From Pedobacter zeaxanthinifaciens (lineage in GTDB: Bacteria; Bacteroidota; Bacteroidia; Sphingobacteriales; Sphingobacteriaceae), in contig NZ_QMHP01000008.1 of the NCBI RefSeq assembly GCF_003313335.1, positions 95,383-159,382 on the forward strand: 64,000 nt of DNA, read 5' to 3'. The notes beneath the pieces are model-generated. The model made no database searches and was not told the origin of the DNA. It worked only from the letters and a program-made list of their open reading frames with translations. The position numbers and the translations under genes are program-made. Shown piece by piece: positions 12,754-28,105 of the stretch (positions within the stretch are counted from its first letter, which is position 1; the number at the start of each line of letters is the position of its first letter).

Positions 12754-13755
12754 GTGCCTATCATATTAGCTATAGAATCATCCTGCGACGAAACTTCGGT
12801 TGCCATTTGTGATAACGGCAAAATTACTGCCAATGTTATTGCAAACCAAACAATTCATGAAAATTATGGAGGTGTAATTCCTGAACTTGCTTCAAGGGTT
12901 CACCAGCAGAATATTGTGCCCGCTGTACAACAGGCTTTAGCCATTGCCGGAGTGGATAAAAAGCAGCTTGAAGGTGTGGCGTTTACGCAAGGTCCGGGAT
13001 TGTTGGGTTCTTTGTTAGTAGGGGTTTCTTTTGCCAAATCTTTTGCTTTGGCACTCGATCTTCCACTGATTTCTGTAAACCACATGCAGGCGCATATTTT
13101 GGCCCATTTCATCGATGATCCGCATCCAAAATTTCCATTTCTGTGTCTTACCGTTTCAGGTGGGCATACGCAAATTGTGCTGGTGAAAGATTATTTTGAT
13201 ATGGAAATTGTTGGTGAAACATTAGACGATGCCGCCGGCGAAGCATTTGATAAAACCGCAAAGATTTTAAACCTGCCATATCCTGGCGGCCCACTGATTG
13301 ATAAATACGCTAAAGAAGGTAATCCGCATGCTTACCAGTTTCCAGAACCACAAATACAAGGTTTAAACTACAGTTTTAGCGGCTTTAAAACAGCGATATT
13401 ATATTTCATTAGAGATAACCAAAAGAATAACCCCAATTTTGTAGAAGAGCATTTGGCCGATATCTGTGCATCGGTGCAGTATAGCATTGTTAATATTCTT
13501 TTAAACAAGTTAAAGAAAGCAGCAAAGCAATACAACTGTAAGCAAATTGCCATAGCTGGAGGAGTTTCCGCCAATTCTGGATTAAGAAATGCCTTACTGG
13601 CACAGCAAGAAATTTTGGGTTGGGAGGTGTTTATTCCTAAATTTGAATATTGTACTGATAACGCTGCCATGATTGCGATAGCCGGTTATCATAAGTTCCT
13701 AAATAAGCAATTTGTAGGGCAGGAGGTAGCGCCAATGGCTCGTATGATTTTTTAA
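12754..13755 (+). CDS. tsaD: tRNA N6-adenosine threonylcarbamoyltransferase
   Basis: A 333-residue Kae1/TsaD/YgjD enzyme. It moves threonylcarbamoyl from TC-AMP to A37 of ANN-decoding tRNAs, together with TsaB and TsaE. It begins MPIILAIESSCDETSVAI, the family signature. Metal-binding histidines lie in NHMQAHILAH and the nucleotide-binding motifs in LTVSGGHTQIV, DDAAGEAFDK and IAGGVSANSG. Length is normal. GTG 12754 is the only start that gives the family N-terminus. Only a few tens of bases separate it from the divergent tamB-like gene. A TATCTTTT box (12744-12751) abuts the start codon. Confidence 0.97.
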   Translation: MPIILAIESSCDETSVAICDNGKITANVIANQTIHENYGGVIPELASRVHQQNIVPAVQQALAIAGVDKKQLEGVAFTQGPGLLGSLLVGVSFAKSFALALDLPLISVNHMQAHILAHFIDDPHPKFPFLCLTVSGGHTQIVLVKDYFDMEIVGETLDDAAGEAFDKTAKILNLPYPGGPLIDKYAKEGNPHAYQFPEPQIQGLNYSFSGFKTAILYFIRDNQKNNPNFVEEHLADICASVQYSIVNILLNKLKKAAKQYNCKQIAIAGGVSANSGLRNALLAQQEILGWEVFIPKFEYCTDNAAMIAIAGYHKFLNKQFVGQEVAPMARMIF

Positions 13756-13765
13756 TATTGATGAT

Positions 13766-13981
13766 ATGCAAACAAGCAGTTTTATATTTTTTGGTTTATT
13801 AGCTATTCCGTTAATTGCCTTTTTATTTTGGGTGATTAAAAAAGATAAGAAAAAGAATTACCTAGGTTTGGCTTTGCTTTTGGTAGGTGCCATTATAGCT
13901 GCTTACACTATCGTACGCTTAGATTCTTCTTTTGTTAAAGAGAAAATCCCAACAGCGCCAAAGGCTTCAAGTTTTAGATAG
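13766..13981 (+). CDS. Small two-helix membrane protein, unknown function
   Basis: 71 residues, 10 bases after tsaD on the same strand. Two hydrophobic helices (FIFFGLLAIPLIAFLFWVI and LGLALLLVGAIIAAYTIV) are separated by a very basic loop (KKDKKKN), so both ends probably face the periplasm. A short tail follows. I do not recognise the family. The tight spacing suggests cotranscription with tsaD. Confidence 0.6.
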   Translation: MQTSSFIFFGLLAIPLIAFLFWVIKKDKKKNYLGLALLLVGAIIAAYTIVRLDSSFVKEKIPTAPKASSFR

Positions 13982-14027
13982 ACGGCTTTTTTTCATAACT
14001 TACCTCTTCCTAAATATTATTTTACCT

Positions 14028-14951
14028 ATGAATAAGTTTAAGAAGAACGAGTATTTGGCTATTGCAAAAATTATAGCCTACGCTGATGTTTTTAGCTATC
14101 CCCTTTTAGAAAAAGAGATAAGGGAGCGATGTCAAGACTTAGATTCAATCAATTTGCCTAATATTTTAGCGGCAATGGTCGACAAAAAGTTGATTCACAA
14201 GATTGATGATTTTTACCTTCTAAATTTTAAAAAAGAACTAGTTGACAGAAGAAAAATAGGAAATCAGTCTGCAAAGGATTGGCTGCCTGTAGCCAAATCT
14301 AATGGTTACAAACTGGTTAAATTTCCTTTCATAAAAGGTGTTTTTCTTTCAGGTTCCATATCTAAAGATTATATGGATGTGGACTGTGATGTTGACTATT
14401 TCATTGTTGCCAAGCATAAGCGTATATGGTTAGCCCACGCATCACTCTTTTTATATCGTAAGATATTTTTTAATACTAATCCTCAACTATTATGTATGAA
14501 CTACTTTGTTGATGAAAAGTATCTGGAAATCCCTTATAAAAATTACTATACTGCATTTGAATGTGTTTCGGTAAAACCACTATTTAGTAAAGCTATGTAC
14601 CATCACTTTTTAGATGCTAACGATTGGGCTAGGACGTATTTTCCACTTTATCCTTTGCAAAACCAACAAGTTGAAGAAGTACCCAATCACTTTATTAAAA
14701 AAATTATCGAAGCAACCTTTAATAATTTTTTGGGAGATATATTAGAGAATTTGATCTTCAAATTTCAACGATGGCGGATAAAAAGGCTTTATTCGAGTGC
14801 GATGTTTGCTGAATCAAGTCAGAATATTAATTTAACCAAGCACTCTATTAAAATACACACTGGAAATTACTTTAAAAAAGTTACTACTTTATTAGAAGAG
14901 AAAATGCAGCGATTTAATGAAAAATTGGAAGCAGTCTATTCAGAAATTTGA
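14028..14951 (+). CDS. Winged-helix plus nucleotidyltransferase-fold protein
   Basis: 307 residues. The first ~70 look like a winged helix (IAKIIAYADVFSYPLLEKEI, then ILAAMVDKKLIHKIDDFYLL). At about residues 109-126 is a polymerase-beta-type nucleotidyltransferase signature, GSISKDYMDVDCDVDYFIV, with the GS pair and acidic residues that bind metal and nucleotide. The rest has no recognised motif. Substrate unknown. It is the first gene of the island and ends 17 bases before the first radical SAM gene. ATG 14028 is chosen because the upstream reading overlaps the preceding gene in another frame. Such proteins occur beside polysaccharide genes, but the link here is inferred from context. Confidence 0.65.
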   Translation: MNKFKKNEYLAIAKIIAYADVFSYPLLEKEIRERCQDLDSINLPNILAAMVDKKLIHKIDDFYLLNFKKELVDRRKIGNQSAKDWLPVAKSNGYKLVKFPFIKGVFLSGSISKDYMDVDCDVDYFIVAKHKRIWLAHASLFLYRKIFFNTNPQLLCMNYFVDEKYLEIPYKNYYTAFECVSVKPLFSKAMYHHFLDANDWARTYFPLYPLQNQQVEEVPNHFIKKIIEATFNNFLGDILENLIFKFQRWRIKRLYSSAMFAESSQNINLTKHSIKIHTGNYFKKVTTLLEEKMQRFNEKLEAVYSEI

Positions 14952-14968
14952 TTCTACTTCAAAACGTT

Positions 14969-16405
14969 ATGGCTAGAATACTGCTTACCCACTCATATTT
15001 TTATCAACTTGACCCTAAGCAATGGCAGTTCAAACAGCCGTATCCACCTTACAATACGCTGTTGGCGGCCGCATATCTTAGAGATAAGAATTTTGAAGTA
15101 ATACTTTTTGATTGTAATCTATCAACCAATCCAGGAGAAATTATATGCTACTTGGAGAAAGAAAAGCCCGATTTTGTAGTTTTTTACGATGATAGTTTTA
15201 ACTATCTGAGTAAAATGTGTCTCACCAATATGAGAGACGCCTGTTTCGAAATGATTAAGCTTAGTAAGCAATTTGGTGCAAAAGTGTTGGTAAGTAGTAG
15301 CGATGCAACCGATCATCCTGAAAAATACTTGGCACAGGGAGCTGACGTAGTGATGCTTGGCGAAGCAGAAAATACATTGTTAAAGCTAGTTTCTCAACCC
15401 CAAGAAAATTGGCAAGGTATAGATGGTATTGCTTACTTAAAAGATGGAATCTTAGAAAGAAGCCTAAAAAAAAGTGTTCAAACCGACTTGGAGCAATTTC
15501 CCATGCCTGCTTGGGATTTGTTAGACATAGCTAAATATCAAAAAGTTTGGCAAATAAACCATGGCTTTGTTTCATTAAATGTTGCCACAACAAGGGGATG
15601 TCCTTTTAAGTGCAACTGGTGCGCTAAACCAATTTATGGCAATAGGTACAACAGCAGGCGGCCAAATGATGTGGTTATTGAACTCAAGTATTTGATGGAG
15701 AGATTTAATGCAAGTCATTTTTGGATTTGCGACGATATTTTTGGCTTGAAACCTAGTTGGGTTAAAGAATTTAGCCTCCTTTTAAAAGAAAATGCACTTA
15801 AACCAAAGCTGAAAATACAAAGCAGGGCAGATTTGCTACTTAAAGATGAAACTATTAAAGAGTTAGTAGCTGCCGGCTTGGATGAGGTTTGGATGGGTGC
15901 TGAAAGTGGAAGCCAAAAAATCCTTGATGCAATGGATAAGGGTACAACGGTTGAGCAAATTTATGAAGCTTCAAGATTGCTCAAAGAAAATGGTGTTAAA
16001 GTTTGCTTGTTCATTCAATATGGTTACCTAGATGAAAACGCTGAGGATATCAAATCTACCCTTAAAATGATTGCGCAGATTATGCCTCATGACATTGGAA
16101 TATCGGTATCTTATCCCCTGCCTGGTACTGGTTTTTACGAAAAAGTAAAGCAACAGCTTCAGGAAAAACAGAATTGGTTGCATTCCAATGATTTGGAAAT
16201 GATGTACCAAGGCACCTACTCGAAGGAGTTCTACAGGATGCTTTATAGTTATACTCATGCCTATTTTAGGAGCCTTAAACTTAAGGATCGATTAAGGAAT
16301 AGAATGAAATTCTCAGTGCGTATTAAAACTATACTCTCGCTATTCCGACAAATTATTGTTAAAAATAGGCTATTCCGAAAAATGAAATTATACCAGTTAA
16401 CGTGA
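14969..16405 (+). CDS. Radical SAM enzyme with B12-binding-type N-terminal domain (1)
   Basis: 478 residues. The N-terminal ~180 have the Rossmann-like cobalamin-binding arrangement seen in this class (PYPPYNTLLAAAYLRDKNF, GADVVMLGEAENTLLKLV). The radical SAM core follows, with the 4Fe-4S motif CPFKCNWC (Cys 211, 215, 218), WICDDIFG, and AESGSQKILDAMDKG. A basic C-terminal ~90 residues follow. Such enzymes carry out radical methylation, ring closure or C-C rearrangement on many substrates; the substrate here is unknown. It is clearly related to the enzyme at 20744. ATG 14969 starts the first strand (MARILLTHSYF). Its stop overlaps the next GTG by 4 bases. Confidence 0.88.
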   Translation: MARILLTHSYFYQLDPKQWQFKQPYPPYNTLLAAAYLRDKNFEVILFDCNLSTNPGEIICYLEKEKPDFVVFYDDSFNYLSKMCLTNMRDACFEMIKLSKQFGAKVLVSSSDATDHPEKYLAQGADVVMLGEAENTLLKLVSQPQENWQGIDGIAYLKDGILERSLKKSVQTDLEQFPMPAWDLLDIAKYQKVWQINHGFVSLNVATTRGCPFKCNWCAKPIYGNRYNSRRPNDVVIELKYLMERFNASHFWICDDIFGLKPSWVKEFSLLLKENALKPKLKIQSRADLLLKDETIKELVAAGLDEVWMGAESGSQKILDAMDKGTTVEQIYEASRLLKENGVKVCLFIQYGYLDENAEDIKSTLKMIAQIMPHDIGISVSYPLPGTGFYEKVKQQLQEKQNWLHSNDLEMMYQGTYSKEFYRMLYSYTHAYFRSLKLKDRLRNRMKFSVRIKTILSLFRQIIVKNRLFRKMKLYQLT

Positions 16406-17991
16406 AAAATAAGAAACTTTTTGTCCTAGGGGTATATTTTTTGATTTTTGGATATTTTGCCTTATTCAAATCAATAAAAGCGCCTATATCTGATTTTGGA
16501 AATAGCTATTACCCCGCGTTAGCTTCACAAAGTTACCATGATGAGGCCTTATTTTTCCTGTATGATTTGGACAAGTATAACCACTATGTAAATCAAATTG
16601 AAAAAACGGATAATGTTGTACTAGACTTTTATCTAAACACGCCTTTTACTTGTACCTTTTTTTATCCATTTACGCTGATAGAGAACGCCCTTAAAGCTAA
16701 GCTGTTATTTAACTGTTTCAGTTACCTAATTTTTGTGTTCGCCGTGCTGCTTTTTTTTAAGACTTATTTACCTGATAGTAATCTTCTCCTAATTCTTCTA
16801 ATTCCCTTAATTTTTTTGACGCCTCTTATAAATCATATTAATACAGGTCAATCTTATTTTGTGTGTTTTGCCTTTTTGTTGATTGGTTATCATCTTATTA
16901 ATGGTAAATGGTGGCTGTTGGGCTGTTTATTGCTTGCATTGGCAGTATTGATTAAGATTTTTCCGCTACTGCTATTAACTCCCCTCATTATCAGTAAACG
17001 CTATAAACAAACGTTATTTACGCTATCATTTGTACTGGTTTTAGTTTTTATCTCAGTGCTGCATTTAGGGTTCAACTTTTGGCACTTTTACTTAACCGAT
17101 GTTTTATTGGCTTCGGTTAAATATCAGACCGCTGTAGACTGGCATTTTTCTGGGCAATCTATGGAGGTTTTTTTAAAGAACTTATTCGTTAAAGACAATA
17201 ATTATAATCCACTGGGGCTTTTTAATGACCCTTTGGTTTATGCTGTTTTGTTATTTGCTTTCAAGACACTTGTAGCGTCAATTATTGTAGCCTTCATTTA
17301 TCAAAATCGAGAAAATGAGTTGGCTATTTTAGCGTCGCTTACTATCGGTTATTTTGTGCTACAAAACCGAACGGCGTCTTATGCTCAAGTTTTTTGGGTT
17401 ATTCCAATGGTATTTCTGCTTAGTTTGCAAATTTCAAAGGCACAAAAGCTGTTTTTTCTATGCTTACTTACTTTGATGGTCAACTGGCCTTATTGGCGTT
17501 TTGAAAAAGCAAACGAATTTTTTGCATATGGACGAATGTGGGCATGCTTGGGGTTGTTTATTTTCGTTTTTTTCTTTGCTTTTCGAAAGATGTTTCGCTT
17601 AAGGCCCGCCTATCTTTTGGTTGGGATTGCTTTTTTGCCTCAACTGGTAAACGCTAAAAAACACTCGCCCAATTATACCTATGTGTGGCCAAATCATAAA
17701 AATTTTGTAACCTACAATTACATTGTTAAACGTGGTGAGCTTACCGTTTTTGCTTTAGGAATTAATGGGGTTAACAGTGCATCTAGAAAATTTCCTATAA
17801 CCGAAATTGACACGAATGCATGTGAAGTTATCGACAACCAAATTTTTTTACATCATAAACCAACAGGTATACGGTCATCTTTAATCAAAAAGCCAATACT
17901 AATTAACAAAAATGAAATCTGGTACCTATCCGATCGAAATGGCCGGTTCGGATGGTTGACTTTACAAAAAGTATCGACCCAAAAATTATAG
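16402..17991 (+). CDS. GT87-like (DUF2029) polyprenyl-phosphate-sugar dependent glycosyltransferase
   Basis: A 529-residue integral membrane protein with roughly ten hydrophobic helices in the first ~400 residues, then a soluble tail of ~120. Early features match GT-C fold mannosyltransferases of the DUF2029/GT87 type: a first periplasmic loop with acidic residues (APISDFGNSYYPAL), FYLNTPFTCTFFYPF, and HINTGQSYFVCFAFLLIG. The family uses polyprenyl-phosphate mannose or a related donor on the outer face of the inner membrane. GTG 16402 overlaps the upstream stop (GTGA), implying translational coupling to the radical SAM gene. A GT2 enzyme that could make the lipid-linked donor is at 19155. Confidence 0.78.
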   Translation: MKNKKLFVLGVYFLIFGYFALFKSIKAPISDFGNSYYPALASQSYHDEALFFLYDLDKYNHYVNQIEKTDNVVLDFYLNTPFTCTFFYPFTLIENALKAKLLFNCFSYLIFVFAVLLFFKTYLPDSNLLLILLIPLIFLTPLINHINTGQSYFVCFAFLLIGYHLINGKWWLLGCLLLALAVLIKIFPLLLLTPLIISKRYKQTLFTLSFVLVLVFISVLHLGFNFWHFYLTDVLLASVKYQTAVDWHFSGQSMEVFLKNLFVKDNNYNPLGLFNDPLVYAVLLFAFKTLVASIIVAFIYQNRENELAILASLTIGYFVLQNRTASYAQVFWVIPMVFLLSLQISKAQKLFFLCLLTLMVNWPYWRFEKANEFFAYGRMWACLGLFIFVFFFAFRKMFRLRPAYLLVGIAFLPQLVNAKKHSPNYTYVWPNHKNFVTYNYIVKRGELTVFALGINGVNSASRKFPITEIDTNACEVIDNQIFLHHKPTGIRSSLIKKPILINKNEIWYLSDRNGRFGWLTLQKVSTQKL

Positions 17992-17995
17992 CAAT

Positions 17996-19162
17996 ATGAA
18001 AAAGGTAATTTGCTTCTTGGCCGTTTTAATAACCTTTGTTGCTGCCTTTCAATTGTTCCGACAAAAGGAAGGTGTCGAAAATGAATCATATACGATTAAC
18101 CTTCGTCACAACAAGTCTTACCATGACGAGACAGACGAGCTTATTTACAAAGGGTTACTGTGGTCGTTTTCGCAAGTTGGAGCAACTCTACCCAAAAAAA
18201 CAACAGCACGCGGAATTGAAAAAGTTACCGATACACTTTGGAGAATTGATGTGTCTAAGTTAGGTTTTCGGCCAGTGGTGTTGGAAAAGTGGCGAAGAAT
18301 AATAGCTGCTGCTAAAAATACTCAAGAGTATCATCTCTATGGTTCGATAATGTTGAATAGATTCGTCATTTGTTCCATTTATGCTAGTAATCATTACTAC
18401 GAAATGGTTCAAGCACCCAAAACCTACAGTGAGTTTTTGCATCCTAGCGTTAACGCATCTAGTAAAGCCGAATATGCTGTCGAAATTTCATCTGTGTCCA
18501 AAGGAGAACGATTAATAAGAATGGATACCACAGTTGAGGCTATAACAGCTCAACAATTTATTGCAGTAGAAGGATCGGGGCATTTTAGCCAAGGGAATTT
18601 TAAGGAAGAACTGTTTGAGCTGATTGATATGATGCCAAATGGACAGCTACGTTACTTAATTTACAGCCATAATGGTCGGTTGGTAAATGCCTCGCCAAAT
18701 TCTTACGGTGACGCAGGTAAGCCCGCCAAATGTATGTGGTGTCACGAATCCTATCTACTGGATAACTTTATGAGTACCCCCAATATCAAAGGTTACCTGA
18801 ACTATGAACAATTTGTATCACTAAATAAACGCAATAATGATAAGTTGATCAAGTATCGCAAACAACTATCAACTGAAATTAACTATGAGAATAAAAAAGA
18901 TCATGAACTGGCAGAAATCATGTATATCAGTTACATGGAACCATCTGCAGAAACCTTAGCTTTTGAGTGGCATTTAAGCATTGAGGAAATAAGACGGCAT
19001 TTGGCTAAATTACGCACACATCAACATCATGAATTTCCGTTTTTAGGACAACTCTATGATAGGCATGAGGTAGATAAATTAGCACCACATAAAAGTGTGC
19101 CTATTCCAAAATCAATTAGAGAACCTAATGATGATGAACCAAATTTACTTGGAGCTAACTAA
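17996..19162 (+). CDS. Membrane-anchored or exported protein with one CxxCH haem-type motif
   Basis: 388 residues, 4 bases after the GT87-like gene. An N-terminal hydrophobic segment (KKVICFLAVLITFVAAFQLF) serves as signal or anchor. The remainder should lie in the periplasm. A single CMWCH at residues 246-250 has the form of a covalent haem c attachment site. A conserved-looking segment precedes it (GSGHFSQGNFKEELFELIDM, then LRYLIYSHNGRLVNASPN). I do not recognise the family. It could be a c-type cytochrome-like redox or sensory protein, or the cysteines could bind metal. Its end overlaps the convergent GT2 gene by 8 bases. Confidence 0.7.
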   Translation: MKKVICFLAVLITFVAAFQLFRQKEGVENESYTINLRHNKSYHDETDELIYKGLLWSFSQVGATLPKKTTARGIEKVTDTLWRIDVSKLGFRPVVLEKWRRIIAAAKNTQEYHLYGSIMLNRFVICSIYASNHYYEMVQAPKTYSEFLHPSVNASSKAEYAVEISSVSKGERLIRMDTTVEAITAQQFIAVEGSGHFSQGNFKEELFELIDMMPNGQLRYLIYSHNGRLVNASPNSYGDAGKPAKCMWCHESYLLDNFMSTPNIKGYLNYEQFVSLNKRNNDKLIKYRKQLSTEINYENKKDHELAEIMYISYMEPSAETLAFEWHLSIEEIRRHLAKLRTHQHHEFPFLGQLYDRHEVDKLAPHKSVPIPKSIREPNDDEPNLLGAN

Positions 19163-19790
19163 ATATTTTTTCTTTCCTTACGCCCCATCTATGCATTAGG
19201 TAAGTGAAGGTTATTCGCAATATGCCTATTCCATAAACTAAGCTGTTTTTAAAAGAAATGGATGAGGCCTCCTTAAAATATTTTATTGGGCATGATACCT
19301 CTCCAATGTGAAACTTCTTGTTTATTAATTGAAGTAAAATTTGATTGTCGAAGATGAAATTATCGCTGTTCTTTTCAAAAGGAATTGCTTCCAGGCAACT
19401 GCTTTTATATGCTCTTAAACCTGTGTGGTATTCGCTTAATTTAGTGTTGAGCATCAAATTTTGAAATGCGGTGAGTATCCTATTAGAAACATATTTGTAG
19501 CGAGGCATTTTACCAACGATTGTCCTGTTGCCAATAATACGCGAACCAAGTACAACATCGTATACATCGTAAGCAATCATACTTACCATCGCTGGAATTA
19601 ATCTGGGATCATATTGGTAATCACCATGTAACATTAAAATGATATCTGCCTTTAAAGCAAGTGCCATCTGATAGCATTTCTTTTGATTCCCTCCATAACC
19701 CACATTTTTATCAAGTTTAATACAGTTTTTAATCAATAAGTTATCTTTCGCAATTTCAAAGGTTGCATCATTGCTGAAATCATCTACCAA
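19155..19790 (-). CDS. GT2 family glycosyltransferase (DPM1-like), probably frameshifted near its start
   Basis: 211 residues as read from the TTG at 19790, lacking the first ~35 of the family. The missing part is encoded upstream in the same frame (KKIIVVIPAYNAAKTIEDTY, then PPGFVDEIIL), but no start codon opens that frame. An ATG at 19895-19897 (MLNGKK) would fuse to it if the T run at 19880-19886 had one more base. What remains has LHGDYQYDPRLIPAMV and VVLGSRIIGN, typical of polyprenyl-phosphate mannose or glucose synthases. Such an enzyme could supply the lipid-linked donor for the GT87-like transferase. Either the assembly has an indel or the gene is off. It is the only minus-strand gene in this stretch. 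Confidence 0.75.
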   Translation of the reverse strand: MVDDFSNDATFEIAKDNLLIKNCIKLDKNVGYGGNQKKCYQMALALKADIILMLHGDYQYDPRLIPAMVSMIAYDVYDVVLGSRIIGNRTIVGKMPRYKYVSNRILTAFQNLMLNTKLSEYHTGLRAYKSSCLEAIPFEKNSDNFIFDNQILLQLINKKFHIGEVSCPIKYFKEASSISFKNSLVYGIGILRITFTYLMHRWGVRKEKIFS

Positions 19791-19924
19791 TATGATTTCG
19801 TCTACGAAGCCAGGAGGAATGGTATGGTAGGTGTCTTCTATTGTTTTTGCGGCGTTATAGGCCGGAATAACTACAATAATTTTTTTCCGTTTAACATATT
19901 GTAAATTTACTTTCTACTTCGACT

Positions 19925-20731
19925 ATGACAAAACAATTTGACTTCACAGCTTCCTACTACGACCAAGAATTCACAAACACTAAAATTGGTATAGCACAAC
20001 GAAATATAGTTCTTAAATTCTTAGATAAAAATCTACAGGGATTAAAAAACGTAGATATTTTTGAATTGAATTGCGGAACCGGGGAAGATGCGCAGTGGTT
20101 TGGTGAAAAAAAGCAAGTGAATAGCATCCTAGCAACCGACATCTCTGAGAAGATGGTAGAGGTGGCAGAACAAAAAAATAAAACTAATTTAAAGGCAAGT
20201 TTTAGGTTAGAAGACGCCTCTAATTTGTCTCCAATCGTTTTGGAAAAACGGTTTGACATTATCCATTCTAACTTCGGTGGACTGAATTGCTTAGATCGGT
20301 TTGAAATCGAATCTCTGCTTCAGCAGCTATCGTTAATGCTAAAGCCAAATGGCTGTATTTACTTGGTATTAATGCCTACAGTTTGTATTTGGGAATCCTT
20401 TTATTTTTGTTTAAAACTGAATTGGAAAAATGTATTCCGACGCTACACTAAGGACTCAGTAAACGCCCAACTAAATGCGGATAATTTCGTGAAAACTTGG
20501 TATTATTCTCCAAAAACCCTCAAGCGTCTTTTGCCTCCATCGTTAAAAATTACTAACTTTCAAACAGTTGGGTTTTTTATATGGCCATCTTATTTAAATG
20601 CATGGGCAACAAAGTGCCCTGCGCTTTTTAATTTGCTTGTTAAACTAGAAAATTTAGTTAAAGGGCTCAGCTTTTTGTGTTTTTTTAGTGATCATTATAT
20701 GGTTAAAATCACTAGCTCTGGAAAAAATTAA
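19925..20731 (+). CDS. Class I SAM-dependent methyltransferase
   Basis: 268 residues, cytoplasmic. Motif I is DIFELNCGTGEDAQWF, with the acidic strand 2 end at ILATDISEKMVEVAEQ and motif IV near FDIIHSNFGGLNC. The C-terminal third is hydrophobic and aromatic (GCIYLVLMPTVCIWESFYF), suggesting a lipid or glycolipid substrate or membrane contact. It is divergent from the GT2 gene with only 27 bases to that gene's probable ATG, and 12 bases ahead of the second radical SAM gene. The target atom and substrate are not known. Confidence 0.82.
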   Translation: MTKQFDFTASYYDQEFTNTKIGIAQRNIVLKFLDKNLQGLKNVDIFELNCGTGEDAQWFGEKKQVNSILATDISEKMVEVAEQKNKTNLKASFRLEDASNLSPIVLEKRFDIIHSNFGGLNCLDRFEIESLLQQLSLMLKPNGCIYLVLMPTVCIWESFYFCLKLNWKNVFRRYTKDSVNAQLNADNFVKTWYYSPKTLKRLLPPSLKITNFQTVGFFIWPSYLNAWATKCPALFNLLVKLENLVKGLSFLCFFSDHYMVKITSSGKN

Positions 20732-20743
20732 GCGCTTAAATTT

Positions 20744-22138
20744 ATGGTGGTTCTAACACATGGATATTTTATTGATGAAGATGCTGCCGAGCAGCAGATC
20801 ATGAAGCCATACCCGCCGTTGGGGATTCTTTACCTTTCTTCTTTTTTAGAGGAACAAGGTATAGCTAACGAAGTTTTTGATAGTACGTTCTCAAGTTTTA
20901 ACGAATTGAGCAACTACCTGATTTCGAATAGCCCATTGGTGCTAGGGATATACGTAAACTTGGTTACCAAATTGAATGTCGTAAAACTATTAAGGTTTGT
21001 TAATACACATCAGGCGCTAAAGAAAGTGAAAGTAGTTTTAGGCGGACCGGATGTAAGGTACAATAAGGAAGCGTATTTGAAGCTGGGTGCTAATTATATT
21101 GTACTGGGAGAAGGTGAAGAAACATTTGGTGAATTGGTAGCAGCAATTATCCGCCAAGATAAAGTTGATCATATACCCGGCATTTCTTTTTTAGACAAGG
21201 GCAAGGTATTTACTAATCCAGAACGTCCACTCAACAAGGAGCTTGACAAACTTCCTTTTCCAAATAGGAAAAAGATTGATTTAGCTAAGTATTTGGCTAC
21301 TTGGAAGCAGTATCATGGCTATAGCTCAATCACCATTAGCACCATGCGGGGTTGCCCATACACTTGTAAATGGTGCAGCAGGGGAGTTTATGGTAAAAGC
21401 TATCGAAGGCGCACTCCTGCTAATGTAGTGGAAGAGTTGGAATATATTGCTCAACAATACAATCCTGATAACATTTGGTTTGTAGATGATGTATTTACCA
21501 TAAGTCATAAGTGGCTTGTAGAATTCGCTACAATAGTGAAAGAGAAAAACCTCAATATTAAATACGAATGTATCACACGAGCTGATAGGATGAATGATGA
21601 GGTGATCAAATTGCTTAAGCAAAGCGGTTGCTATAGGGTTTGGATTGGCGCAGAAAGTGGTAGTCAAAACATTATTGATTTGATGGACAGGCGTGTAGAT
21701 GTAGATTTAGTACAGCAGATGATAAGAGCAGCAAAACAAAATGACATAGAGGCAGGAACATTTATCATGTTGGGCTATCCCGAGGAAACAGAACAAGATA
21801 TTAAGCAAACATTAAAACACCTAAAAAAGGCTAATCCAACGTTTTATACAATTACCATTACTTATCCAATTAGAGGTACCGAACTATTTCAGCAAGTGGA
21901 GGCTTCAAGTAATGTAGCTGACCTCGATTTTGCTACTACAACGGACAGGCAAATTGCATTTAAACAGACATTTAGCAAAAAATATTACCAGTACGCAATT
22001 CAGTGGATCAATAGTGAAATGACTTTTCTTCAGCGAAAAGAACGTGACTTGGCTTGGCACGATAGTTTAAAGGCGAAGCTAAAATCAGTTAAAGCTCGAA
22101 TAGGCATGTATCTAGAAAAAAGGAAATTAGTGGCATGA
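20744..22138 (+). CDS. Radical SAM enzyme with B12-binding-type N-terminal domain (2)
   Basis: 464 residues with the same layout as the enzyme at 14969. The N-terminal cobalamin-type domain contains KPYPPLGILYLSSFLEEQG, VVLGGPDVRYNKEAYLKLGA and YIVLGEGEETFGEL. The radical SAM core has CPYTCKWC (Cys 204, 208, 211), FVDDVFT and GAESGSQNIIDLMDRR. The two share the segment RGCP..C.WC....YG..Y..R.P..VV.EL, so they are paralogues that probably treat related substrates. The gene follows the methyltransferase by 12 bases and overlaps the next start (ATGA). Confidence 0.88.
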   Translation: MVVLTHGYFIDEDAAEQQIMKPYPPLGILYLSSFLEEQGIANEVFDSTFSSFNELSNYLISNSPLVLGIYVNLVTKLNVVKLLRFVNTHQALKKVKVVLGGPDVRYNKEAYLKLGANYIVLGEGEETFGELVAAIIRQDKVDHIPGISFLDKGKVFTNPERPLNKELDKLPFPNRKKIDLAKYLATWKQYHGYSSITISTMRGCPYTCKWCSRGVYGKSYRRRTPANVVEELEYIAQQYNPDNIWFVDDVFTISHKWLVEFATIVKEKNLNIKYECITRADRMNDEVIKLLKQSGCYRVWIGAESGSQNIIDLMDRRVDVDLVQQMIRAAKQNDIEAGTFIMLGYPEETEQDIKQTLKHLKKANPTFYTITITYPIRGTELFQQVEASSNVADLDFATTTDRQIAFKQTFSKKYYQYAIQWINSEMTFLQRKERDLAWHDSLKAKLKSVKARIGMYLEKRKLVA

Positions 22139-22830
22139 GAAAAATAATTCAGCAACTTAATAAGCCTTTAAGTAGGTATGTTTTGCAGCCATTGTATCAT
22201 TGGTACGGATCATCTTCGCGTAGGGCTAAATTAAAAGGTATGGATTTAGTGGTTTCACCAGGGGTTTTTCATCCTGTTTTTTTCTTCAGCACTAAGATTT
22301 TGTTGAACTGGTTAGATCGCAACGAGGTGAAAGACAGAAGCCTACTTGAAATAGGAAGTGGGAGCGGGGCGGTAGCCATTTATGCCGCAAAAAAAAAGGC
22401 CTCAGTAACTGCAGTTGACATTAACCCTGCGGCATGTGCATGTACAAAATCAAATGCTGAACGCAATGGACAACGTTTAAGTGTATATCAGTCGGATTTA
22501 TTAGATATGGTACCACAAATGCAATTTGACATCATTTTAATAAACCCACCATATTTTCCAAAAACACCTCAAAACTATGCTGAGCAGGCGTGGTATTGTG
22601 GTGAAGATTTCAGTTTTTTTGAACGTTTATTTCGTGAAATAAGTGCTTACATGCAATCTTATGCCAAAATAATTTTGGTGCTAAGCGAGCATTGTGAGAT
22701 ACGTCAGATACGAGAAATAGCCGAAAAAAATCAGCTAATTTGGAACCAAATAGAACGGCACGATCGTATAATTGAGCAAAATTATCTGTTTGAAATTAAT
22801 AAATATAGTTTCGCTTCCAGTGATGGCTAA
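22135..22830 (+). CDS. HemK/PrmC-like small-domain methyltransferase
   Basis: 231 residues. The methyltransferase fold has motif I SLLEIGSGSGAVAIYAA, the motif II acidic residue in VTAVDINPAAC, and the catalytic NPPY in IILINPPYFPKTP. NPPY marks transfer to a nitrogen (Gln, Asn or adenine) in the HemK and N6-adenine groups. It has no release-factor-binding N-terminal domain, so it is not PrmC. It is translationally coupled to the radical SAM gene by a 4-base overlap, which suggests an amine-bearing product of that enzyme as a possible target. This is inference. Confidence 0.78.
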   Translation: MRKIIQQLNKPLSRYVLQPLYHWYGSSSRRAKLKGMDLVVSPGVFHPVFFFSTKILLNWLDRNEVKDRSLLEIGSGSGAVAIYAAKKKASVTAVDINPAACACTKSNAERNGQRLSVYQSDLLDMVPQMQFDIILINPPYFPKTPQNYAEQAWYCGEDFSFFERLFREISAYMQSYAKIILVLSEHCEIRQIREIAEKNQLIWNQIERHDRIIEQNYLFEINKYSFASSDG

Positions 22831-22990
22831 AAATAGCGTTAAAAAAGCAATAAAGATGGTAATGATGCTTGCAAAGAAAATGCTGGTTTGTGAATTCAGT
22901 ATTTAATAAGGCTACAAGTTATTGATTATCAACAACTGATTGCCATAATTTATAGATAAACCTATTGAAAATAATATTAGTAAAATTAAA

Positions 22991-24526
22991 GTGAACAAAG
23001 TCATACTCTTCAATCCACGAAGTGCTAAAAATAAGCATCGCGTTCCTATCGGAATTCTGCAAGTGGCAGCTTCTATACACGGTAAATGGGAATATGTCAT
23101 TGTTGATGGGAATATGGAAACAGATCCCGGCGCAAAGATAGAAGCATACTTGCGGACAGGAGAATATAAATATTTTGGATGCACAGTAATGCCGGGGCCG
23201 CAACTTAAAGAAGCTATTCCAATTACCAAAAAAATTAGAGGCCAATTTCCAAATGTTGTAACTATTTGGGGAGGATATTTTGCCACCAACCAACATAAAG
23301 TAGTGCTAGATTCGGGATATGTAGATTATGTGATTAATGGCATAGGAGACTTAGCGTTTCCGGCTTTGCTTGATGCCTTAGATCAACAAAAACCTACAAT
23401 TCCGCTAATTAGTAACCTAATTTATAAACAAGATGGCCATATAATCAAGACACCAAAGGTGACCTTAATTGATATGGATGACTTGCCTTTACTGCCGTAT
23501 GATTATTTGAATACACTTTATCCACTTAAAAATTATTTGGGTAAAACCTATCTTGGAAACAAAACAATTGGCTATCATTCCAGTTTTGGATGCCCATTTA
23601 CATGTTCTTTTTGTGCAGTAGTACCCATTTTTGAGGCACGTTGGAAAGGCAAAAGTGCATCGTTAATTTATCAAGATATCAAGTTCCTAAAAAACAAATA
23701 TGGCGTTGACTCGGTGGAGTTTTTTGACAACAACTTTTTTGTTTCGGAAAAGCGAGTGGTGGAGTTTTGCCATTTAATTAAGGATGAAAATATTACTTGG
23801 TGGGGTGAAGGGAGGATAGATACCATTGATAAATACTCCGATGAATCGTTGAAATTGATGAGAGCATGTGGTTGTAAAATGATTTTTTTTGGCGCTGAGA
23901 GTGGGAATGATGAAATCCTTAAGCAGGTAGATAAGGGTGGTACACAGTCGCAGGCGCAAATGCTTAACTTCGTTAAACGTATGAAAGCTGTGGGTATTAT
24001 TCCGGAGTTTTCGTTTGTACTTGGTTTCCCGGCACCTACGGCTCAAAAGGTAATGCAGCAAGTTAATTTTGATATAAATTTCATCAAGAAAATCAAAGTA
24101 TTAAACCCAGCTACGGAAATCATTATTTACGTTTATAGCCCGGTACCAACCGAAGGTTCGGAGATGTACGAACAAGTAAAAGCATTAGGGTTTAAATTTC
24201 CACAACATCTTGATGATTGGCTGGATGATAATTGGCAAAAATTCGATTTGCGAAGAAATCCACTTACACCTTGGTTGAGCCCCAAAATCGTGAACAAAAT
24301 TCTTGATTTTGAACTAGTGATAAATGCCCGCTATCCAACCATATCTGATTTAAAATTAACTAAGTGGCAAATACGATTAATAAAGCTTTTATCTAGCTGG
24401 CGATATGCGCTTAATATTTTTAGTTATCCCTACGAGATAAAATTAGCAAATAGATTTTGGTTGAAATATAGGATGCCAAATACCGAAGGCGCAGAAGTAA
24501 TTTATACGTCAGAAAATGCTGAATAG
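22991..24526 (+). CDS. Radical SAM enzyme with B12-binding-type N-terminal domain (3)
   Basis: 511 residues, more distant from the other two. The N-terminal domain has KHRVPIGILQVAASIHG and NVVTIWGGYFATNQHKVV. The core has CPFTCSFC (Cys 201, 205, 208), FFDNNFFVSEKRVVEFC, GAESGNDEILKQVDKGG and FVLGFPAPTAQK. The C-terminus (~110 residues, to NTEGAEVIYTSENAE) is family-specific. It starts at GTG 22991, after a 160-base gap in which I see no clear promoter. Its last codons overlap the FkbM-type gene by 11 bases, so those two are probably coupled. Substrate unknown. Confidence 0.87.
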   Translation: MNKVILFNPRSAKNKHRVPIGILQVAASIHGKWEYVIVDGNMETDPGAKIEAYLRTGEYKYFGCTVMPGPQLKEAIPITKKIRGQFPNVVTIWGGYFATNQHKVVLDSGYVDYVINGIGDLAFPALLDALDQQKPTIPLISNLIYKQDGHIIKTPKVTLIDMDDLPLLPYDYLNTLYPLKNYLGKTYLGNKTIGYHSSFGCPFTCSFCAVVPIFEARWKGKSASLIYQDIKFLKNKYGVDSVEFFDNNFFVSEKRVVEFCHLIKDENITWWGEGRIDTIDKYSDESLKLMRACGCKMIFFGAESGNDEILKQVDKGGTQSQAQMLNFVKRMKAVGIIPEFSFVLGFPAPTAQKVMQQVNFDINFIKKIKVLNPATEIIIYVYSPVPTEGSEMYEQVKALGFKFPQHLDDWLDDNWQKFDLRRNPLTPWLSPKIVNKILDFELVINARYPTISDLKLTKWQIRLIKLLSSWRYALNIFSYPYEIKLANRFWLKYRMPNTEGAEVIYTSENAE

Positions 24527-25433
24527 TCAATTAATCAAGGTGTTAGATAATCATAATATTCAAGACATTGTACTTGTTGATGTTGGCGCTAAAGGTGCGT
24601 TGGAATATTTTCGCAATTTGTTAAGTATAACAGAGATGTACGCCTTTGAGCCTAATTACATTGAATGTGCAAACTTGACGAAACGCTATCTTAATCATAA
24701 ATTTAAGAAACTTCGCATTAACCAATATGCATTAGGCGTAGCCGACGTAGCGCAGGTTTCGCTTAATATCACCCAAAATGCTTCCATGAGTAGTTTGTTG
24801 ACACCCGATAAGGACAACTACTTAAAGCACTTCGGTCAATACAAGGAATTTGATAAGTGGGCAGATGCTATATCGGTAAAAAGCCAAGCTCCCGTACAAA
24901 TGAGAACTTTGGATAGCTATGTGCTTGAGCAGGGGATTAAACAAATAGACTATTTGAAAATAGATACACAGGGCAGCGAATTGGAAGTGTTGAAGGGGAG
25001 TAGCCAACTGTTGATTGATAAGAGCATCGCTGTAATAAAAGTAGAAGTTTCAACTATACCTGTATATAAAAATCAAGCGCTTTTTACCGATGTAGATGCC
25101 TTTTTGCGGAGTTTTGGGTATACACTTGTCGATTTCAGGACCTATCGGAGAGATGATTTTGCAACGCATGAACATTATGCACCTTGTGGCGATGCTATAT
25201 ATGTTGTTGATCGTTTGAATGGACAGTTTGGTTTTAAAGCGGCCATCATATTATTTAGTTTGGGATATAAAAGTTTGGCGCATAGATTTTTGGAGGATTA
25301 TGGCCTATCAAAAGATGAAATTCAAAGCATAGCTAAGCTTGGCAGTGTAGGTTTTGCTAGTAGGCTAAGAAAATTTCTAAGGCTTTTGCTGCCTCCAATA
25401 TTTGTTGAGGTTAAGCGTATACTTAGTAAATGA
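24516..25433 (+). CDS. FkbM family methyltransferase
   Basis: 305 residues. The FkbM O-methyltransferase domain covers about residues 15-225. It has VLVDVGAKGALEYF as motif I, MYAFEPNYIECANLTK, SMSSLLTPDKDN, and the late signature IDYLKIDTQGSELEVLKGS. Members methylate sugar or polyketide hydroxyls. The C-terminal ~70 residues, ending in a basic amphipathic stretch, are extra. The 11-base overlap with the third radical SAM gene suggests they act in sequence, plausibly on a surface sugar. Confidence 0.88.
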   Translation: MLNSQLIKVLDNHNIQDIVLVDVGAKGALEYFRNLLSITEMYAFEPNYIECANLTKRYLNHKFKKLRINQYALGVADVAQVSLNITQNASMSSLLTPDKDNYLKHFGQYKEFDKWADAISVKSQAPVQMRTLDSYVLEQGIKQIDYLKIDTQGSELEVLKGSSQLLIDKSIAVIKVEVSTIPVYKNQALFTDVDAFLRSFGYTLVDFRTYRRDDFATHEHYAPCGDAIYVVDRLNGQFGFKAAIILFSLGYKSLAHRFLEDYGLSKDEIQSIAKLGSVGFASRLRKFLRLLLPPIFVEVKRILSK

Positions 25434-25450
25434 TAATTACTAACTATCTA

Positions 25451-25581
25451 AGAAACTGTTTAAATTTCTGTTGATTAACATACAGCTGTCATGTTGAGCT
25501 TTTCGAAACATTTTTTAACAAGTAGTCTCCGCCAAGCTCAGACTGACAAGTAAAAAGTTAAACTGAAATTTAAACAATTTC
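25451..25581. repeat. MITE-like palindromic element
   Basis: A 131-base element in the 350-base spacer between convergent genes. The ends are imperfect inverted repeats: AGAAACTGTTTAAATTTCTG (from 25451) against AACTGAAATTTAAACAATTT (to 25580). Nested inside are CTGTCATGTTGAGCTT and AAGCTCAGACTGACAAG, again inverted. No reading frame is present. It could also act as a bidirectional terminator. Nothing else is seen between 25582 and 25784. Confidence 0.65.
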
Positions 25582-25784
25582 TAATTCTTCATTGCTGTTT
25601 ATTAAAAAATGTCAAGCTTGGTAAGCGAGGGTTATTGCATTTATTGAAGTAATTGTAATTATGTTTTTAGATTTAGCTGAGGGCCAACGCAATATGCTGC
25701 TATCTTTCTGGTTATATTCACTTGTTCATTAAGCTTATTGCCGCTAGTTTTAACTTTATTTAATTTGATATCAAAATTTAAGGT

Positions 25785-26855
25785 TTAATAGTTTGACGCC
25801 GACTCTCCAAATTTACTATGATGTACTATTGAATAAAATTGAGTCATCGAAATAAGGTGGTTCGCCCAGCTAAATTTTCGAGCCCTTTTTATCCCTTTTT
25901 TTATCATTTCTGTTCTTTTTTGCAAGTGGTTTAAAGAAAGTATTTCGTTTACAAATGCATCAGGATTTTCGTAGTCGCTAATAAATATAGCTCCATCTTC
26001 TGCAATTTCTCTCAAGCATGGAATATCCGAACAAACTACTGGACACCCTGTTTTCATGGCTTCAAGAACAGGTAATCCAAAACCTTCATATTTACTTGGG
26101 TATATTAGGCAATGGGCAGTGTTATAATGATAGTTTAACTCATCGGTGCTGATGTTTTCGAAATGTTGTATCCTGTTCCCAAATTTCGATTTGTAAGTTT
26201 TCCATTCTGTTTTGTAGAACTTTTCGTTGCTAATTACCACCAGGTTATATTGAGGTAGTTTTTCGATAATATCGATACAAATCTGAAAATTCTTATAGTG
26301 GCTGCGCCTACCTACAAAAATGATTTTATTGTTAACCTTTTGAATGCCTTCTAACGGAAATAGTGTATCGGAACATCCGTGATGTATCACACAAATTTTT
26401 TTACTAAAAGCATCTGGGTAGTAAATTAACAGGTTTTTTTTGGTTTCTTCAGATACGCAAATAATACCATCGGCACGTTTAATAGCGATTTTTTGAAGCC
26501 ATTTTTTCACTGCTGCACGTATACCTTTTACGTGTCCCATCTCTGCCGCTAAATCATGTATGGTTACTACGTTAGCTATGTTTTTTTGTAAAGAAATACG
26601 CAAGTAACTGGAATGAAAAATGCTTTTTGGTTGCAGTTTTTTTAATAAGATGCGTGATAAGAAAAATGGATATCGATACTCTGACAGCTGTTTTGAACTG
26701 ATTTCTTTTATGGAGCAGGGATTTATCTTATTTGTGAGTACTTTAAAATCGATGGCCTTAGATTTGGACATTTCCGAGATTACCGATTTCCAATAAACGG
26801 ATATGCCACCAACCGACTGTAAGTGGAAAATAAAATCGTCGAGGTAGATCAACAT
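25785..26855 (-). CDS. Glycosyltransferase family 1/4 (GT-B fold)
   Basis: 356 residues, cytoplasmic or membrane-associated. The N-terminal acceptor domain has FHLQSVGGISVYWKSVI and VVTIHDLAAEMGH. The donor domain has IIFVGRRSHYKNFQICIDII and the nucleotide-sugar signature YPSKYEGFGLPVLEAMKTG, followed by PVVCSDIPCLREIAEDGA. The family retains configuration and adds hexoses to growing glycans. It is transcribed divergently from the flippase with 65 bases between starts, so both may share a control region. Sugar specificity cannot be read. Confidence 0.9.
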   Translation of the reverse strand: MLIYLDDFIFHLQSVGGISVYWKSVISEMSKSKAIDFKVLTNKINPCSIKEISSKQLSEYRYPFFLSRILLKKLQPKSIFHSSYLRISLQKNIANVVTIHDLAAEMGHVKGIRAAVKKWLQKIAIKRADGIICVSEETKKNLLIYYPDAFSKKICVIHHGCSDTLFPLEGIQKVNNKIIFVGRRSHYKNFQICIDIIEKLPQYNLVVISNEKFYKTEWKTYKSKFGNRIQHFENISTDELNYHYNTAHCLIYPSKYEGFGLPVLEAMKTGCPVVCSDIPCLREIAEDGAIFISDYENPDAFVNEILSLNHLQKRTEMIKKGIKRARKFSWANHLISMTQFYSIVHHSKFGESASNY

Positions 26856-26920
26856 ATTTGCAAAATATAACTTTATTTGCTCAGAATAAAATTTATCTAC
26901 TTTCCTAACAACCTACCTTA

Positions 26921-28105
26921 ATGCTAAAACGGAAGTTTTCAACCATACTTAAGAATGTGCTGCGGCAAGGCATAAGTAGCATAATTAGTTTTTCTCTTCC
27001 CTTTTTAGTAATCAACCATTACTCAAAAAACCTATGGGCTGATTTTGTTGGTTATTCACTTTACTTAATGGCAGCAGTTGCCATAGTTGCTTGGGGTGGT
27101 ACAGATTTGATTATTAGGAAGATAAGCCGCAGGCCAAATAACGCTGTTGTAATAATCCAGGAGCTATTGCTAAGTAGGATGCCTATCTTGTTGCTGTCTT
27201 TTGGTATCACTTTTCTTCTATTTCCTGTTGCAATAGCAACTGCTATTGCACTCTCTATCGCAGTTACATTCGTGGGACAACTTTTTTTTGCACTAATGCG
27301 CTACGAACGCTTGTACACGTGGTCTAGCTTAATTGAAGTGGTTTGTTATGTTTGCTTTTTAGTCTGTTTTTTTAGTTTTCAATCATTTGGAGATATTAAA
27401 AACTTCCTCAGGTTGTACACGTTTTATCAGTTATTGCGTACGTTGTTGGCCGTTTCCATACTTAACGGCTATGTATATCCTTGGTATGTTAGGCCAAGTT
27501 TTGATGTAAGTTATCTTTGGAAATCTTACGGGTTATTCATTTTTTCTATTGTAGGGTTTTTGATGTCGCGACTTGATTTGTACTTGGTTTCGTACACTCA
27601 TAACAAATCTTTGTTGGCCAATTATCAGTTATTTAACGCTGTTTTCGTTAACGCAATGATAATACCTTATTTAATTTATTCTCCATATCAAAAAAACCTA
27701 TATAGAAACGGGGAGATGGTCTATCGTAAAGTTAAACGTTTAATTTGCTCGGCTGGTTTATTTATTACGCCAATTATACTGCTCGTTATTTCAATTATTT
27801 TCAGGCATTTTGCAGGAATAGAAACTACCCCAATCCTAGGCGTTTTGTTGTTTTTTTCTGTATTTCCATCATTTGTTTACAGCCTAGACATCCTTTTTCT
27901 TTTGAAGAATAAATTAGAAAATAGAGTGGTTTTTCTTACCATAATAGTGTTGCTGGTAGAATTTTGCTCACTTTATATTTTGTTAGCGTTGCAGCAAGAG
28001 CTGTACAGTGCACTAACTGGAGTGGCAATAGGCCAAATGACGTTTTGGTTTTTGTTGAGCCGAGAGGTTAAGAAGCATCAAACAACTCACCATCAGTCAA
28101 GCTAA
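26921..28105 (+). CDS. Polysaccharide/oligosaccharide flippase (Wzx-like)
   Basis: 394 residues with about twelve hydrophobic helices. It begins with the basic amphipathic segment typical of Wzx/MVF flippases (LKNVLRQGISSIISFSLPFL), then TDLIIRKISRR. The family moves undecaprenyl-linked glycans across the inner membrane. It is the last gene of the island and ends at a bidirectional terminator shared with recA. Its presence argues that the island makes an exported, lipid-linked product. No polymerase (Wzy) or ligase is recognisable in the window. Confidence 0.82.
   Translation: MLKRKFSTILKNVLRQGISSIISFSLPFLVINHYSKNLWADFVGYSLYLMAAVAIVAWGGTDLIIRKISRRPNNAVVIIQELLLSRMPILLLSFGITFLLFPVAIATAIALSIAVTFVGQLFFALMRYERLYTWSSLIEVVCYVCFLVCFFSFQSFGDIKNFLRLYTFYQLLRTLLAVSILNGYVYPWYVRPSFDVSYLWKSYGLFIFSIVGFLMSRLDLYLVSYTHNKSLLANYQLFNAVFVNAMIIPYLIYSPYQKNLYRNGEMVYRKVKRLICSAGLFITPIILLVISIIFRHFAGIETTPILGVLLFFSVFPSFVYSLDILFLLKNKLENRVVFLTIIVLLVEFCSLYILLALQQELYSALTGVAIGQMTFWFLLSREVKKHQTTHHQSS

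Follow-up and report, generated by a model that had tools for sequence, protein, structure and literature searches.

Among described systems close to the locus treated here are the inlA alleles of Listeria monocytogenes, in which a 5' poly-A tract is one base short and translation stops after 8 residues, and for which reversion from A6 to A7 is reported at about 5.5e-7 (PMC2831843). The same source reports an excess of such tracts at the 5' ends of genes. In a laboratory plasmid library in E. coli, an M.HaeIII gene whose 8-A repeat had lost one A is reported to have protected highly at basal expression (PMC3812077). Likewise, in the "pseudo pseudogenes" with runs of 9 A/T (PMC1088944) and in tssM1 with 11 A (PMC4256274), the frame is described as broken at an A run, with slippage restoring the product.

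Here we analyze a comparable arrangement in the window, a 64,000-nucleotide stretch of a contig of Pedobacter zeaxanthinifaciens. As in the inlA alleles, a 5' poly-A run appears to be one base short and the frame stops after 8 codons; however, inlA is documented from several strains with a measured reversion, whereas the window offers one sequence, from another kind of bacterium, and the gene is a glycosyltransferase. With the M.HaeIII indels it shares the apparent loss of one A from a short run and a possible rescue by slippage, but that rescue was demonstrated in E. coli, whereas the window is known from sequence alone. In contrast to the runs of 9-11 in the "pseudo pseudogenes" and tssM1, the run of the window has a length of 7 and is not kept in homologues.

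The glycosyltransferase frame and its start

The features of the locus, in window coordinates, are the following:

19155..19913, minus strand: GT2 glycosyltransferase open frame, 252 codons and stop; homology from KK at 19886; Pfam PF00535, 33 homologues
19874..19897, minus strand: predicted inherited start ATG 19897 with the frame MLNGKKLL, off frame relative to the rest; TAG directly after
19880..19886, minus strand: run of seven A, A_AAA_AAA in the ATG frame, as read in the sequence
19155..19790, minus strand: truncated open frame from TTG, 211 aa, without the IPAYN motif; Pfam match from profile position 33, 46.5 bits
17996..19162, plus strand: convergent neighbor without a Pfam match, sharing 8 bases with the 3' end of the GT2 frame
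19925..20731, plus strand: divergent methyltransferase gene, with 27 bases between its ATG and ATG 19897

Read on the minus strand from 19897, the sequence is ATG TTA AAC GGA AAA AAA TTA TTG TAG, which gives a frame of 8 codons in all (ATG at 19897-19895; MLNGKKLL) closed by the TAG and containing seven A at 19886-19880 (T on the plus strand). The GT2 frame, with the motif KKIIVVIPAYN, lies one base off the frame of ATG 19897. A TAG at 19916-19914 precedes its opening, the opened stretch KVNLQYVKRKKIIVVIPAYN holds no ATG, GTG or TTG, and the frame, which encodes KKIIVVIPAYNAAK, extends for 252 codons from this opening to a stop ending at 19155, its remainder being open beyond the break. The first listed start within it is TTG 19790 (211 aa), with none of ATG, GTG or TTG earlier. 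The original prediction, that the GT2 frame has no start codon and that an ATG at 19897 reading MLNGKK stands one base out of its frame, is confirmed in both frames and coordinates.

We also observed, at 19932-19902 of the minus strand, a TTTG followed by 19 bases and TAAATTTA, ending 4 bases before ATG 19897. We take this arrangement to resemble the Bacteroidetes promoter consensus, and such a putative promoter would yield a nearly leaderless mRNA. A sigma-70 scan gave 7, which is not clearly above shuffles (mean 5.1, sd 2.6).

To judge the start, we assembled homologues from 21 loci found in a scan of genome contigs and 13 others found in a search of 399 genomes of the family, its own included; one (L073) was left out as its match begins inside the protein, leaving 33 homologues with an N-terminus, 51-61% identical. 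They align over nearly the whole length of the GT2 frame. In every one of the 33, a start codon (29 ATG, 4 GTG) lies exactly four codons (12 nt) ahead of the one that aligns with the first lysine, these starts being read from sequence and some frames also holding earlier start codons. In the window, ATG 19897 stands 11 nt, not 12, before the first lysine codon, and the N-terminus of two homologues (L055 and L057) is exactly MLNGKK. Because all 33 homologues begin four codons before the lysine pair, this comparison argues that ATG 19897 is the inherited start and that one base is missing between it and the KKIIVVIPAYN motif. The inherited start hence lies off the conserved coding frame, in the manner of a pseudogene. 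The claim of a frameshift relative to the natural ATG is thereby backed by the full set of homologues with an N-terminus; had relatives begun at the shorter start the claim would fall, and none of the 33 does.

As to which base went missing, the original prediction held that seven T should be eight. The gene is indeed one base short, but shortening of the run is only one possible parsing. A glycine occupies the position just before the lysine pair in 14 of the 33 homologues, encoded by GGT (8), GGC (4) or GGG (2) and never by GGA, and an in-frame 7-A run is present in 8 of the 33 and an 8-A run in none. Since no GGA occurs among the 14 and no 8-A run among the 33, loss from the run is less certain, and the missing base could instead be the third base of the glycine codon. 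Nevertheless, because homopolymer runs mutate faster, slippage in the A run is a priori the likelier event.

Identity, distribution and surroundings of the gene

The whole GT2 frame matches Pfam PF00535 with 71.8 bits (cut-off 23.3), which places it in the GT2 family, whereas the protein from TTG 19790 reaches 46.5 bits with profile positions 1-32 missing. The best NCBIfam matches of the whole frame are archaeal AglJ, PpgS and a dolichyl-phosphate hexose transferase. The nearest solved chain by sequence is 5mlz, a dolichol monophosphate mannose synthase, with which, as with PF00535 at large, it shares the GT2 domain and the IPAYN and VDD motifs; it differs in that its scores against the nine NCBIfam subfamilies matched all lie far short of the respective cut-offs. 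Given these matches, the product looks like a lipid-phosphate (polyprenyl- or dolichyl-phosphate) sugar synthase that belongs to no named subfamily.

In 144 other genomes of the genus the best match has an E-value of 1.4e-16 and 30% identity, with listed identities of at most 31% over part of the protein; in the family, 13 of 398 other genomes searched have a match at E up to 1e-20. A check for redundancy found that the next match listed in its own genome is 22% identical. In a search of phages (DNA) and viral contigs, no relative was found. This rarity in genus and family suggests that the gene is accessory and so probably dispensable.

A Pfam scan of eight neighbors recovered three B12-binding radical SAM proteins, one GT87, two methyltransferases and two proteins without a match. 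The three separate B12-binding radical SAM genes are clustered with the GT87 and methyltransferase genes at 14948-24526; further along are genes that, from their translations, we take to be FkbM-like, GT4-like and flippase-like. For the methyltransferase at 19925, matches with E up to 1e-15 occur in only 2 of the 144 other genus genomes, at 30% identity in each case. A search for a conserved neighborhood gave a negative result: at a threshold of E 1e-8, none of 12 other window genes (12754-28105) matches any of the 34 homologue loci compared, which are 2-17 kb long.

A lost base or an error in the record

We posit that this accessory GT2 gene probably suffered a recent loss of one base at its 5' end and is now a near-null allele, perhaps a leaky one. 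The base, which we infer to be truly absent in the cell, would have been lost between ATG 19897 and KKIIVVIPAYN, with polymerase slippage in the A run as the likeliest cause. A ribosome that begins at ATG 19897 would then terminate after 8 codons, and a glycan may be affected; residual full-length protein may arise through slippage of RNA polymerase or the ribosome on the A run, and reversion would be expected at the rate usual for runs of this kind. As the rest of the frame is open and the homologues align over nearly its full length, the lesion looks young, though the otherwise open frame fits a still-expressed allele too.

The principal alternative, unlikely but to be taken seriously, is a base-calling or assembly error, with the gene intact in the cell and the record one base short. 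Errors of this sort classically appear as a single-base loss beside a homopolymer in a gene that is otherwise open, and the assembly is a draft in 26 contigs. Against this, we surveyed 464 kb (400 kb of sampled stretches of the same genome plus the window) with a frame HMM on each strand. It called 16 frame changes, none of them within 45 nt of a run of at least 7, in a sample that holds 205 coding A/T runs of at least 7 (34 of them at least 8); at 14 of the 16 the new frame offers a start codon of its own nearby, and these sites resemble genes that overlap or abut. Of 60 single-base losses simulated in internal runs of at least 6, the HMM recovered 33, which sets a loose bound on homopolymer error of about 3 in 113 runs at 95%. 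The break in the GT2 gene itself, which has too few codons ahead of it, escaped the HMM.

A second screen examined 357 frames of the 464 kb for coding signal ahead of their first start codon; it flagged 12 frames, and 2 of these stood out strongly. The GT2 gene ranks second, and it alone among the 12 has a run of at least 7 near the break. When 333 losses at codon 5 were simulated, 141 scored above 2 (the flagging threshold) and 78 above 5 (the strong class); because just 78 reach the latter, more start-less broken frames may exist in the genome. Together, and within their limited power, the frame HMM and the start-less-frame screen make a general homopolymer error unlikely as the cause, and a real mutation is favored over a homopolymer-prone assembly. 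Of the three options originally offered, loss of function fares best and general homopolymer error is unsupported, while a single error at this one place is a less likely alternative.

The strongest candidate of the second screen is a gene at L079:9219-11301 (C1:529219-531301 of its own genome), presumably comEC/Rec2-like, whose N-terminal piece is in a different frame from the remainder. The break falls close to the 5' end, in sequence where no run is longer than 4. A match is present in 11 of 12 other genomes of the genus searched: seven (L098-L104) have one open frame of 696-708 codons, three are shorter (564-678) and one is broken. The N-termini of five of the seven intact relatives lie in one continuous frame. 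The comEC-like gene at L108 (genome G065, also of the genus) contains two TGA within the match and goes on in a second piece, and so looks broken as well. Hence, the genome appears to hold at least one other 5' frame break, not of the homopolymer kind.

Slippage at the adenine run

That the recorded allele itself yields useful full-length enzyme, by accident and not by design, is a doubtful proposition. The segment GGA AAA AAA TTA contains the slippery heptamer A_AAA_AAA, in phase for a -1 ribosomal slip into the GT2 frame, and RNA polymerase may add an A; transcriptional insertions in A/T runs are reported from E. coli and Buchnera, more of them as the runs get longer (PMC5574713), and the M.HaeIII deletion described above offers a precedent. 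However, the right phase follows automatically from a one-base loss here and is a by-product of it, and in E. coli A_AAA_AAA is reported to shift far less readily than A_AAA_AAG (PMC5009743). The downstream RNA folds no better than shuffles: over the 81 nt that begin with the run's last A, the pseudoknot-free fold has -11.8 kcal/mol, and 37 of 200 shuffles fold as well (z -0.91). We reject conserved recoding as an explanation, the arrangement being common to none of the 33 homologues, and programmed frameshifting finds no positive support. Nevertheless, given the reported rescue of a shortened A repeat in E. coli (PMC3812077), accidental leakiness of the allele is realistic in our analysis. 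The assertion that only a truncated protein from TTG 19790 is possible was too strong, as slippage on an A run of similar size is reported to have yielded functional protein in that system.

We regard it as very improbable that this is a phase-variable contingency gene, in which changes in run length would toggle a surface glycan. Phase-variable glycan genes carrying homopolymeric tracts are reported from Campylobacter, Helicobacter and Neisseria, members of other phyla, and a slip has most effect at the 5' end, where this run lies. Nevertheless, the longest A runs at the site vary from 0 to 7 across the 33 homologues: since 12 of them have runs of at most 4 and none exceeds 7, no long mutable tract that could act as a switch is conserved. 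The run is also unremarkable for this genome, where, of 333 genes with an unambiguous ATG, 26 carry an A/T run of at least 7 within the first 45 nt, in agreement with the excess of 5' tracts reported in PMC2831843. Our search found no literature joining Pedobacter, frameshift and phase variation. The switching raised by the original prediction, like programmed frameshifting, is thus left without positive support.

Least credible of all is the notion that the gene is kept on purpose, with slippage at A_AAA_AAA in codons 4-6 setting a small dose of enzyme.

Conclusions

The position of the inherited start of this glycosyltransferase is settled by the comparison with its homologues, and a protein prediction that starts at TTG 19790 would be mistaken. 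If a small dose of enzyme were indeed set by slippage, the locus would represent an early-gene recoding switch in a bacterium of the Bacteroidetes type. On the reading that we prefer, a recent one-base loss in an accessory gene, the broken start represents one more frameshift at a 5' A run, an ordinary event of a well-known kind, and the case would matter more only if switching or recoding were true.
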